Assembly (NCBI GenBank): GCA_018222405.1
Contig: JAAFAI010000023.1
Coordinates: forward strand, 1-64,000
Reading direction: 5' to 3'
Source: Gammaproteobacteria bacterium
Lineage (GTDB): Bacteria; Pseudomonadota; Gammaproteobacteria; Enterobacterales; Alteromonadaceae
Length of the DNA: 64,000 nt
Under the pieces are notes generated by a model. That model did no database searches. It was not told the DNA's origin and was given only the letters and a program-made list of their open reading frames with translations. The position numbers were made by a program, and so were the translations under genes. How positions within the stretch are numbered: position 1 is the first letter of the stretch; each line of letters opens with the position of its first letter. Positions 51,730 to 54,943 of this stretch are shown here, piece after piece.

Positions 51730-54060
51730 TTAGCGGCCAGACCCGGTTAGCTGAAACGCCGCCCAGTAGTAAGGATGCGCCTGATAGTTATTTTTTACGC
51801 TCAGCTGGGCATTACGCAACGACTGCTGTTTATCCTGGTTTTGCAGGTTGTTATACAGGTTAACCATTAAGCGCGCCGTTGCCTCATCATCCACCATCCA
51901 TAAACTGGCCACAATATTGGCCGCGCCAGCAAACAAAAAGCCACGGGTTAAACCAATCACGTCGTCGCCGGACTGCACATCGCCCAAACCGGTCTGACAC
52001 GCGCTTAAGGTCACCAGTTCACTGTTAAGCTCCAGATCATAAAGCTCGCCTACTGTCAGCGAACCGTCGTTAGACTCATCGCCCACCAGCAGTAACCGGG
52101 AAGACAGTGGCTCCTCAGGATTAAACTCGCCATGGGAGGCAATGTGTAACACCGGCACCCTTGCAGCATAGCTTTTAAACAAACTCTCGGTAGCCTGCTC
52201 GCGCACTGCCACCACCGAATCCGGTACAACGTTGCTAAGTGCCCTTACCTCGTTTTGCGCGCCGGGTAAGTCCAGCGCCGGATCGCCAAGGGCCGGATTA
52301 CCCAGTGCCAGCATGGTAGTTTGCCCCGAGCGCTGAGGTGCTTTTAAATAGGCCATCACGCTGGCCGAGGGCAACACCCGCAAACTGTATTGTTCCAGCA
52401 TAAAATCAGCGCCATCGAACAACGCGGCGAAGGGTAAATAATGTAAGGGACCATGCGGGACGATAACCAGTTTATCAGCAGTCAGGCTGCTCTGTAGCGG
52501 CCCAATCAGTGTCTCATACACCGCTTTGGACGACTGTTGCCAGGCGTTACTGTTGGTTTGCATAATGTCTTGTCGGAACCGACTGATTTTATCTGCCAGT
52601 CCCCTGCCGTTAAGGTGCTTTACCGTTATCTGCTCCCGGTCGACAATAAATGCATAAAACGCCTCGTTGTTCCCGAAAAACTCAATTAACTGTTCGTCAC
52701 CAGCCAGTTGCTGTTGTAAGGCACGGGTATCTACATTTCCCACACTCACCAGAGAAGCCACTTCCGGTGCCTGCGCTTCAAGCGCTTCACGCTGGCGAAG
52801 GATCAAACCGCGGGTACGCGCTGAATTTTTAATTGCCGCCACGGTCGTGCGCTGCATTTGCGATTCCAGCTCTGCCAGCTCAGCGAGCCCGGCCCGGGCA
52901 GCACCATCCCCCGCAAAGGATTGCTTTTGCGCCAGCATATCCACCAGCGCCCGGGCTTTAGCTTTCTCGGCATAGACAAACGCATCGGCGATGCGGTTTT
53001 GTGCCAGCAGATATTCCACCAGTAACTCGTAAACCGCCTGTTTATCGCCCACGAAACCAATTTTATAAGCCTCTGAGCGAATGGTTGAACGCTGGCTTTC
53101 GATAATCTCCACGGCTTGCATCAGCATTTCAATTGCTTCATCGGGCGCTTGCTGTTGCCAGCTGATCACAGCGCGGTCTTTCAGTGCGGCCCAGTGGATC
53201 TCACCAAGGCTGTTGATAATCGGATTGGCCAGTAAGGTATCAAAGCCCTGACGGGCTTTATCGATATCACCGGTTTCAAAATAGGATTTGCTCAGCATAT
53301 AAAGCTCTGGCGTGCGCAACGCGCCTTCTCGCACATCTGCGTCGGTACTGACATTCTCCACCATCAGGATTAACGGGGTTATCAGCGCAGCCAGCGGATC
53401 AGAAATGTCCTGGCGCAGAATATCCAGCGCACGGGCATAGTCTTTTTGCGCAAAGTAGATGCGTCCAAGCGCGGTTTGTTTAACACGCAGAAAGCTTGAA
53501 CGACCCGGAGAATAATAGTTCAGCCCGCTTAACTCTTCGATATACGGCTGTGCCTGAGCACCTTTGTTACGGTAAATCAGTGATAGTGCCTGCACCTCAA
53601 GCGGGGCAACAAGATAACTTAACAAGCGGCCTTCGTTGACTTCCGTAGAGGTGTTTTCCTTTAACAGGGTATAGGCTTCCCCGGCCAGCTCGTAGGCTTC
53701 TTCGTACTCGGTAAATTCGAGCAGCATTTTTGCCTGATAGCTCTTAACATAGCCCTGAAATTCCAGTTTATTCACATACGTAAAATCCAGCCCTGGGTAA
53801 AACTCCGTACCCGGATCCGGGTGGGCCAGCACATAATCGGCGCACTCGGTAAACTTTTCGTATTCGCGTATCTCGTAGTAAGCCGGGCACAGCAGGTACA
53901 GTTTGTGTAACGGCACATCTTCGAGTGTCTGGTGACTACCGGTTACCTCTGCTACCACTTCGGCATAATTACCCTCTGAAAACTTATTCATGTGGGTGGG
54001 GCTGGACACACAGCCCTGTAAACCAAGGAAAGTAACAATCACCAAGGATGTTAAGCGCAT
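51730..54060 (-). CDS. TPR–CHAT domain lipoprotein
   Basis: A 776-residue lipoprotein (lipobox LQGC near residue 17). About residues 40-345 are helical TPR-like repeats, a coiled-coil-like stretch follows (about 360-440), and the C-terminal third is a CHAT (caspase-like) peptidase domain. The catalytic dyad is intact: H643 in HIASHGEF and C688 in LSACQTGLG, with GAANIVASLWMVDD and HPYYWAAFQLTG closing the domain. The family is protease-like, but substrate unknown. The gene starts 10 bp after the DUF4384 gene; both are exported and probably act together. Confidence 0.9.
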   Translation of the reverse strand: MRLTSLVIVTFLGLQGCVSSPTHMNKFSEGNYAEVVAEVTGSHQTLEDVPLHKLYLLCPAYYEIREYEKFTECADYVLAHPDPGTEFYPGLDFTYVNKLEFQGYVKSYQAKMLLEFTEYEEAYELAGEAYTLLKENTSTEVNEGRLLSYLVAPLEVQALSLIYRNKGAQAQPYIEELSGLNYYSPGRSSFLRVKQTALGRIYFAQKDYARALDILRQDISDPLAALITPLILMVENVSTDADVREGALRTPELYMLSKSYFETGDIDKARQGFDTLLANPIINSLGEIHWAALKDRAVISWQQQAPDEAIEMLMQAVEIIESQRSTIRSEAYKIGFVGDKQAVYELLVEYLLAQNRIADAFVYAEKAKARALVDMLAQKQSFAGDGAARAGLAELAELESQMQRTTVAAIKNSARTRGLILRQREALEAQAPEVASLVSVGNVDTRALQQQLAGDEQLIEFFGNNEAFYAFIVDREQITVKHLNGRGLADKISRFRQDIMQTNSNAWQQSSKAVYETLIGPLQSSLTADKLVIVPHGPLHYLPFAALFDGADFMLEQYSLRVLPSASVMAYLKAPQRSGQTTMLALGNPALGDPALDLPGAQNEVRALSNVVPDSVVAVREQATESLFKSYAARVPVLHIASHGEFNPEEPLSSRLLLVGDESNDGSLTVGELYDLELNSELVTLSACQTGLGDVQSGDDVIGLTRGFLFAGAANIVASLWMVDDEATARLMVNLYNNLQNQDKQQSLRNAQLSVKNNYQAHPYYWAAFQLTGSGR

Positions 54061-54070
54061 AATTCACTCC

Positions 54071-54943
54071 TTACTGCGTGATCACCACATCGGCAGACAC
54101 TTCGGCAAACTCAGCAACTTCAGGTGGGGTCTGTGGCGCTGCCGCTTTAGCAGATGGCGGATTAAGAGCTTTAATTTTGATGCCCCGGGTGCGATTGCGC
54201 ACATCAGACGACGTTTGCGAGTTGTTGATCAAATACATGCCCGATACTGCAGAGGTTTGTAATTCACCTAACGGATGGGTGCTGGCATATAAAGTAAGCT
54301 GTTCTACGCCAATAGGCGGTGTGACTTCCAGCACAAAGCTGTCTTTGGCGTCGGGCACCGTGTACAGCACCTGGCCCTGAAAATGGTTTTCACTGCGATA
54401 GGGGTTGGGCAGTAACTGCACCTGGGTACCGTCATTCATGGTATACACCAGACGCCCGAAAAAAGGTTTATTGGCCTTCAGGTAAATACTCACCTGCTCG
54501 CCCAGGGCATATTGCGCTTTGCTAAGCCATAACTTTACGGTAAGGGGAATGGTCGGGTCGGCAAGCAGCTCTTCACTGACAAACTGCTGATCGATATTTT
54601 TCTGCGGCGTGACCTCGGCGCGAATGGTTACGGTTAAACAGCCGTCTTGCAACCGCCTGGACAAGACATTAAGGGTTTCTACCGAGGCATTGGAGTAAGA
54701 CTCAATCAGGTCTTCTACCACCACATAGTTGTTCACTTTACTGTAGCTGTCTACCGAGGTTTGCACGGCTTCGGCAGCATTGCGCCGGGCATCGGTAAGA
54801 GCCAGTTGCAGGCGCTGGGCGTCTCCCCCATCGGCCTCGCAGCTTTCGCCGGTTGCTTCAACAATAGAGGAATAAGCTGCTAAGGTGCTCTGCGCAGAAC
54901 ACAATAACCATAACGCACCACAAAATATCGTTTTTTTAATCAC
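54071..54943 (-). CDS. Secreted DUF4384 domain protein
   Basis: A 290-residue protein with a signal peptide (GTG start; cleavage after LAA, about residue 23). The first half is helical and includes a conserved RRNAAEAVQTSVDSYSKV segment. The DUF4384 domain lies at about residues 140-240 (LWLSKAQYALGEQVSIYLKANKPFFGRLVY, with GVEQLTLYAST at its end). The tail is Pro/Ala-rich. DUF4384 occurs beside CHAT or caspase-like and FecR genes in other bacteria, which fits the downstream CHAT lipoprotein 10 bp away. Confidence 0.85.
   Translation of the reverse strand: MIKKTIFCGALWLLCSAQSTLAAYSSIVEATGESCEADGGDAQRLQLALTDARRNAAEAVQTSVDSYSKVNNYVVVEDLIESYSNASVETLNVLSRRLQDGCLTVTIRAEVTPQKNIDQQFVSEELLADPTIPLTVKLWLSKAQYALGEQVSIYLKANKPFFGRLVYTMNDGTQVQLLPNPYRSENHFQGQVLYTVPDAKDSFVLEVTPPIGVEQLTLYASTHPLGELQTSAVSGMYLINNSQTSSDVRNRTRGIKIKALNPPSAKAAAPQTPPEVAEFAEVSADVVITQ

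Follow-up and report, generated by a model that had tools for sequence, protein, structure and literature searches.

Anatomy of the CHAT-DUF4384 locus

The 64,000-nucleotide stretch analysed here (the window; positions 1 to 64,000 of contig JAAFAI010000023.1, assembly GCA_018222405.1, from a Gammaproteobacteria bacterium of the Alteromonadaceae) carries two adjacent genes on its minus strand, to which all the window coordinates below refer. The upstream gene encodes a protein with FlgT_N and DUF4384 domains (54071..54943; 290 amino acids (aa), GTG start), and the downstream one a lipoprotein with a tetratricopeptide repeat (TPR)-like region and a CHAT domain (51730..54060; 776 aa). The 10-bp gap between them (54061..54070) begins with GGAGTG, including a ribosome-binding-site-like GGAG upstream of the CHAT start. 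The reading frames, domains and motifs were found as the first-pass annotation of the window had described them, both proteins bear export signals, and genome comparisons point to a real and recurrent but loose partnership, probably belonging to the cell envelope.

The CHAT domain (residues 509-774; 51739..52536) matched nearly the whole Pfam model PF12770 (E 7.8e-71, 239.3 bits against a cut-off of 24, model positions 2-289 of 289), and the TPR-like region (residues 196-369; 52954..53475) was recognized from weak TPR matches in Pfam that did not reach the curated cut-offs. The predicted catalytic residues, His643 (52132..52134, in HIASHG) and Cys688 (51997..51999, in LSACQT), were both invariant in 21 of 21 aligned close relatives, so that the loss of the dyad in close homologues, of which the first-pass annotation had warned, was not seen. 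The dyad was also kept in all 38 CHAT domains of a wider set made up of the fetched loci and the window; a crude pattern had suggested its loss in six CHAT frames, which was ruled out when the alignment placed it in all six. Arg417 (52810..52812, in TRGLI), within the otherwise variable linker preceding the CHAT domain, was likewise invariant in the 21 sequences. This alignment includes near-duplicates (three copies of the window CHAT from sister species and three of the type found on contig 4 of the host), one relative lacking a lipobox (G035) and one member with a split N-terminus, and it leaves out 18 more distant CHATs, in which the Arg417 position was not conserved and the dyad was missing in seven. 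Ratios of nonsynonymous to synonymous substitution rates (dN/dS) were 0.05-0.06 for the CHAT gene and 0.07-0.08 for the DUF4384 gene, with the stop codon left out for Alteromonas oceani. That the CHAT lipoprotein is a non-proteolytic scaffold binding peptides via its TPR arm is very unlikely, since the invariance of the dyad in the close relatives and the wider set and the dN/dS of the gene speak against it, even if dyad-less CHATs exist among the distant ones. The predicted structure of the CHAT protein was poor (pLDDT 60.9, alignment of 4 sequences), and therefore no conclusion was drawn from it.

The N-terminus of the TPR-CHAT protein, MRLTSLVIVTFLGLQGC, contains a signal peptide of type II with the lipobox LQGC (54010..54021), in which Cys17 is predicted to be lipidated and is followed by Val at +2. 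The Gln at -2 is slightly unusual, and a relative with 57% identity (G015) likewise has LQGC. Under the +2 rule of the Lol pathway, lipoproteins with no Asp at +2 are sorted to the outer membrane, and the window protein is expected there because of its Val. Export signals on the window proteins were called by eye and with a home-made script, and similar ones were recognized on most of the close CHAT relatives. The script, which is lenient in detecting signal peptides, assigned lipoprotein signals to 10, Sec signals to 24 and none to 3 of 38 CHAT frames, one being cut by a contig end and two being pieces of the broken A. oceani gene; the CHAT of G035 has a signal without a lipobox. Among 48 frames of the C14 caspase family the script found 9 lipoprotein signals, 24 Sec signals and 2 membrane anchors, with 8 lacking any and 5 cut. 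Most of the caspase-clan frames examined thus look exported, although these counts give no general rate, because a high CHAT score or a DUF4384 neighbour was the ground for choosing the frames.

The DUF4384 protein begins with a Sec-type signal peptide, recognized by eye (about residues 1-22; 54878..54943), followed by a FlgT_N/LPP20-like domain missed in the first-pass annotation (residues 27-113; 54605..54865; Pfam E 6e-9, 36.7 bits against 28.8) and by the DUF4384 domain (PF14326, residues 144-224; 54272..54514; E 3.2e-19, 69.2 bits against 27). A model built from an alignment of 40 relatives (pLDDT 83.8, pTM 0.58) showed a FlgT_N-like domain, a beta-rich DUF4384 domain, a low-confidence and probably flexible linker, and an ordered last strand at residues 279-289 (54077..54109; block pLDDT 93) with a conserved [AS]EFxE motif. 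The linker starts at Arg253 (54185..54187, in NRTRGIKI), which was invariant in 40 of 40 aligned relatives. The idea that the C-terminal tail is a CHAT-specific tag was rejected, because members that lack a protease neighbour conserve the tail too, and because it forms an ordered strand in the model. Foldseek returned no match to the model at E 0.001; the best two matches were GbpA-type chitin-binding proteins, followed by Helicobacter pylori Lpp20 (5ok8, probability 1.00, E 9.3e-3) and FlgT (3w1e, E 1.1e-2).

Co-occurrence of the two genes in Alteromonas

Within 147 genomes of the host family, full-length relatives of the DUF4384 protein were restricted to two (the host and G120), the other matches covering the FlgT_N part only, and CHATs close to that of the window (E below 1e-90) to three (the host, G015 and G035). 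Among named organisms, A. oceani and A. alba supplied the closest relatives of the DUF4384 protein. A set of 59 Alteromonas genomes contained the DUF4384 protein in seven and the lipoprotein TPR-CHAT (E below 1e-80) in eight; both were present in seven genomes, the CHAT alone in one (G819, 87% complete) and neither in 51. The full-length DUF4384 protein was thus present only where the lipoprotein TPR-CHAT was, the latter occurring in 7/7 DUF4384-bearing genomes and in 1/52 of the others, relatedness ignored (hypergeometric p = 2.3e-8 if the genomes were independent, a figure that likewise ignores relatedness). Some CHAT match, mostly distant, was obtained in 23 of the 59 genomes.

The seven DUF4384 genes differed in what lay beside them, the CHAT gene being intact in three (the host, G839 and G818), broken in one and absent in three. 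The conserved co-occurrence that the first-pass annotation had expected was borne out at the level of the genome and of a recurring CHAT/C14-DUF4384 neighbourhood, but the pair is not fixed at the window locus, and on this point the annotation was too strong, while its anatomy and location signals were right. In G838 (L299) a short, stop-ridden CHAT end lies between the Dabb and AzlD genes with no DUF4384 gene, which suggests that both genes were once at this site.

Neighbourhoods beyond Alteromonas

A search of 369 Gammaproteobacteria yielded 51 DUF4384 matches in 37 genomes, with CHAT matches in 57 genomes and C14 matches in 74. In a raw count, made without a random control, 31 of the 51 DUF4384 matches (25/37 genomes) had a CHAT or C14 match at most 5 kb away; the neighbour was CHAT in 5, C14 in 29 and both in 3, several being in one frame (fusions). 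The count took the 51 DUF4384 places together with those of the 7 CHAT and 40 C14 matches that shared their contigs.

A three-sequence alignment of the full-length DUF4384 protein was used to scan 84,980 species genomes, giving 55 loci, of which 51 were counted after three near-identical Alteromonas loci (L111-L113) and one without a profile match (L165) had been dropped; near-duplicates were otherwise kept, and two loci, L139 and L142, are the G154 and G120 contigs. A CHAT or C14 frame was detected within 5 kb at 23 of the 51 loci (CHAT in 5) and within 600 bp at 18, the 23 being a lower bound because many contigs are short. Within the first 1.5 kb the density of such frames was 19.0 per 100 kb, and outward 3.6, 1.6, 4.2 and 0.8. 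The comparisons show that a caspase-clan gene, CHAT or C14, is a recurrent neighbour of DUF4384 proteins. These caspase-clan genes appear to be mostly of the export type in the sets examined, and the association of CHAT with DUF4384 is real beyond the window locus.

From the CHAT side the association is looser than from the DUF4384 side. CHAT searches outside Alteromonas found the window type in eight genomes (G015 and G035 belong to the host family, while G390 and G486 are of one genus), and a DUF4384 gene lay within 2 kb in four of them: G015, with the two genes divergent; G035, with one gene between; G154, with a C14 gene between; and G550, with a gap of about 0.6 kb. In G154 and G550 the neighbour was a full-length DUF4384 protein, while the CHATs of G015 and G035 lay within 1.1 kb of different, barely related DUF4384 proteins (Pfam E 5.3e-4 and 1.4e-5, below the cut-off).

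It is rather unlikely that the two window genes have no direct link, the DUF4384 protein being an independent envelope structural protein of the FlgT/LPP20 type and the CHAT protein sharing only its operon or a stress response. Such a reading would accommodate the Lpp20 and FlgT folds among the best solved-structure matches, the loss of the CHAT gene from the locus in relatives and the many full-length DUF4384 relatives that adjoin housekeeping genes; it sits badly with the enrichment of caspase-clan genes beside DUF4384 and with an Alteromonas co-occurrence that holds also for unlinked genes.

The first-pass annotation had also proposed a third component, a FecR or sigma factor. Of these, FecR was seen away from the window: L147, from a Thermodesulfovibrionales metagenome-assembled genome, gave the only Pfam-confirmed case of a FecR gene beside a full-length DUF4384 gene. 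At the window itself, a Pfam scan of six neighbouring genes turned up neither a FecR nor a sigma family. In L147 (8847-13695) FecR is followed by the full-length DUF4384 protein and then a C14 caspase, and in L158 (604-8023) a near-identical FecR gene, recognized by eye, precedes full-length DUF4384, a CHASE2-guanylate cyclase and CHAT.

Other arrangements were observed. In L102 (4682-7168) and L103 (4687-7072), genes for an exported C14 caspase, for an export-type protein some 240 aa long and for a small DUF4384 protein stand in a row. Two regulator-like genes upstream of the L102 module, recognized by eye, had been considered as sigma and anti-sigma genes; the idea was dropped because Pfam has no family in either protein at E 0.001. 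In G120 (L065:4919-8897) a Sel1-C14 caspase with an export-type N-terminus is followed by an autotransporter beta-barrel and the full-length DUF4384 protein. Genes for an LPP20-like protein (below cut-off) and a GNA1162-like lipoprotein adjoin the full-length DUF4384 gene in L114 (6987-10876) and lie within about 10 kb of DUF4384 in G550 (L278:617-10836). Very large CHAT frames (2,565-2,804 aa) were recorded in several Pseudomonadota (L232, L233, L235-L237, L239-L241 and L245), and CHAT proteins without the His/Cys dyad in L229, L230, L231, L238, L242, L243 and L246.

The six neighbours scanned at the window locus were all ordinary, encoding Dabb, phosphoribosyltransferase, AzlC, AzlD, HTH-cupin and DUF188 proteins. 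A promoter scan of the locus gave 3 hits versus 3.9 in shuffled sequence, and a terminator scan 6 versus 4.9. The host genome (4.96 Mb, 47 contigs) contains three CHATs and one DUF4384 domain, with no C14 match. The second CHAT (contig 4 of G000; L068:8847-11321) is also a lipoprotein TPR-CHAT, 41% identical over residues 154-774, with no DUF4384 in the frames listed around it; the frame after it looks, by eye, like a phytanoyl-CoA dioxygenase.

A shared arginine motif in the linkers

The NRTRGIKI string in the DUF4384 tail is similar to strings, noticed by eye, with which mature C14 proteins begin or which lie in linkers. A pattern written after these strings had been spotted, [TS]RG[VIL][KRT][VIL], was found in 8 of 93 C14, 2 of 23 CHAT and 35 of 84 DUF4384-profile frames (a profile that also catches FlgT-like proteins). 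It was missing from all 9 other DUF4384 frames and occurred in 2 of 994 other proteins (one protein in two genomes). Both pattern-bearing CHATs adjoin such DUF4384 genes and carry the pattern between the catalytic His and Cys. A looser pattern preceded the C14 domain in 11 of 55 C14s near DUF4384 versus 1 of 38 others (p = 0.024), and occurred anywhere in the protein in 15 of 55 (3.9 expected by shuffling) versus 3 of 38 (3.0 expected).

A weight matrix built solely from the 40 DUF4384 tails matched 7 of 94 C14, 7 of 23 CHAT and 4 of 994 other proteins at a score of 12 (p = 2e-11, the threshold having been picked after the fact); the corresponding numbers were 4, 1 and 2 at a score of 14, 2, 0 and 2 at 16, and 1, 0 and 1 at 18. 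Of the seven CHAT matches, three are at other places in the protein and two come from orthologues; those at an IRGVKL stretch in L278, L279 and L099 are elsewhere in CHAT and were set aside as probably due to chance. The RG motif was also rejected as a general mark of DUF4384 proteins, an RG-hydrophobic string occurring within 70 aa after the domain in 6 of 29 others (1.2 expected by shuffling).

Processing or docking may take place at the shared [TS]RG[VIL] linker motif, a candidate site for which the evidence of cleavage is weak. Cutting after positively charged residues is the published rule for orthocaspases, relevant to the C14 partners (PMC6426788). An extension of this idea, which we consider quite doubtful, is an envelope caspase-clan cascade in which exported CHAT or C14 proteases and a DUF4384 partner would be processed or docked at a shared [TS]RG[VIL][KRT][VIL]. 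This motif follows the DUF4384 domain, precedes some C14 domains and falls between the catalytic residues of two CHATs; the window CHAT has it as TRGLI in its linker around Arg417. If true, the cascade would be a proteolytic switch outside the cytoplasm in which CHAT and C14 are interchangeable.

A putative envelope module

Related pairs in distant bacteria are commoner than chance, which suggests a caspase-type switch outside the cytoplasm. We tentatively propose, as a reading somewhat short of probable, that the two window genes make up a small module of the envelope, in which the DUF4384 protein would be a physical partner of the CHAT protein and act as its sensor, adaptor or substrate. The outer membrane would carry the CHAT protein on its periplasmic face, the TPR arm of the CHAT protein would hold the DUF4384 protein, and an envelope signal might open the CHAT site so that the partner is clipped or released. 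The linker at Arg253 may be where the protease docks or cuts, the weakest step of the scheme.

Several observations weigh against this proposal. Five of the seven Alteromonas DUF4384 proteins are 95-100% identical, the remaining two being 75 and 63%, and the co-occurrence count is uncorrected for relatedness. The CHAT gene beside DUF4384 has one in-frame stop in A. oceani (G811; L111/L272) and is absent in A. alba (G790; L112/L273), G803 and G829; the absence is clean in A. alba, G803 has the same synteny and G829 has its DUF4384 gene at another locus, and a lipoprotein CHAT is still present elsewhere in these three genomes. No CHAT or C14 frame was detected within 5 kb at 28 of the 51 distant full-length DUF4384 loci, some of which are on short contigs. 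Among the genomes with a window-type CHAT, G390 and G486 have no such DUF4384 gene, G262 has a weak DUF4384 match only and G636 an unlinked, divergent one (E 1.8e-26). DUF4384 was found in 0 of 20 fetched stretches around other CHATs, these being taken from the high-scoring ones of the search of 369 Gammaproteobacteria. DUF4384 also occurs in proteins with kinase domains (PMC6426788).

Further points concern the linker. The Arg motif is equally conserved in DUF4384 proteins without a protease neighbour. An Arg-P1 specificity as in separase was not supported, since the position eight after the conserved Trp, which binds the P1 Arg in separase (residue numbering from PMC9729208), is A729 here and Ala, Ser, Thr, Arg or Lys, hence non-acidic, in 21 of 21 close relatives. 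The cleavage sites of orthologous Craspases are unlike one another (PMC11106740), which argues against reading the conserved Arg as a cleavage site.

The DUF4384 protein could instead be a keeper that folds, tethers or inhibits an envelope CHAT protease, in the manner of an immunity protein or antitoxin and not of a substrate. Its survival where the adjoining CHAT is absent (3/7) or broken (1/7) would fit this role, as would the fact that the sole Alteromonas genome of the 59 with the lipoprotein CHAT and without DUF4384 is the incomplete G819 assembly. We regard it as unlikely, given that the window-type CHATs of G390 and G486 live without a full-length DUF4384 protein and that many DUF4384 proteins have no detected protease neighbour.

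Comparison with known systems

In the literature examined, CHAT proteases act in anti-phage or CRISPR systems, and DUF4384 appears in papers on caspase homologues. Literature searches returned no paper on an exported CHAT-DUF4384 pair and none with both "CHAT domain" and "DUF4384"; judged by title or the start of the abstract, none dealt with an exported CHAT in lipoprotein and TPR, periplasm, or FecR and CHASE2 contexts. One paper combining CHAT domain, lipoproteins and periplasm (PMC10907252) was considered as a precedent and set aside, the CHAT-bearing target being placed in the cytoplasm there.

Like the window protein, the Craspase protease Csx29 combines a TPR region with a downstream CHAT domain that bears a His/Cys dyad, and the two proteins are related in sequence over the CHAT domain (PDB 7x8a and others, E about 4e-5). 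Csx29 acts with the RNA-guided gRAMP on Csx30 (PMC9729208), whereas the window protein has a lipobox and no gRAMP or Csx30 was found among the six neighbours scanned with Pfam; the NCBIfam Csx29 model (NF041237) gave 58.5 bits, far below its cut-off of 300. In bacterial gasdermin systems a caspase-like CHAT protease clips gasdermin (PMC9729208; PMC9079055). The protease type is shared, but the partner at the window is an exported FlgT_N-DUF4384 protein, both window proteins bear export signals in contrast to a cytoplasmic protease, and no gasdermin family was found among the same neighbours. PADLOC gave a weak match of the CHAT to BovA (E 5.6e-4) and none for the partner. By these comparisons, assignment of the pair to the Craspase or gasdermin systems fails, and a cytoplasmic-type anti-phage system of either kind, already disfavoured, is hardly credible: the relationship to the Craspase TPR-CHAT lends it some colour, against which stand the export signals, the neighbours and the PADLOC result. 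The CHAT domain has been called most closely related to eukaryotic separase (PMC9729208), from which the window protein differs in the non-acidic residue at the place of the Asp that binds the P1 Arg.

The partner resembles the FlgT/LPP20 envelope proteins in its N-terminal domain (Pfam FlgT_N, with 5ok8 and 3w1e among the first four Foldseek matches) and differs from them in carrying DUF4384; the Foldseek E-values are only about 0.01, the best two matches are of the GbpA type, and no flagellar gene was found among the six neighbours scanned with Pfam. Cyanobacterial orthocaspases (C14) likewise tie a caspase-clan domain to DUF4384, which is present in 23 of 473 of them according to an accessory-domain table (PMC8283722). 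The tie seen here is one of gene neighbours with some fusions; the window protease differs from orthocaspases in being a CHAT lipoprotein encoded by a separate gene, with a partner that has a FlgT_N domain and a C-terminal strand. Given a recurrent class of CHAT lipoproteins tied to an exported partner with DUF4384, a caspase-type switch would have its seat in the bacterial envelope, DUF4384 would gain a role that can be tested, and CHAT and C14 proteases would be connected as alternative enzymes within a single module.

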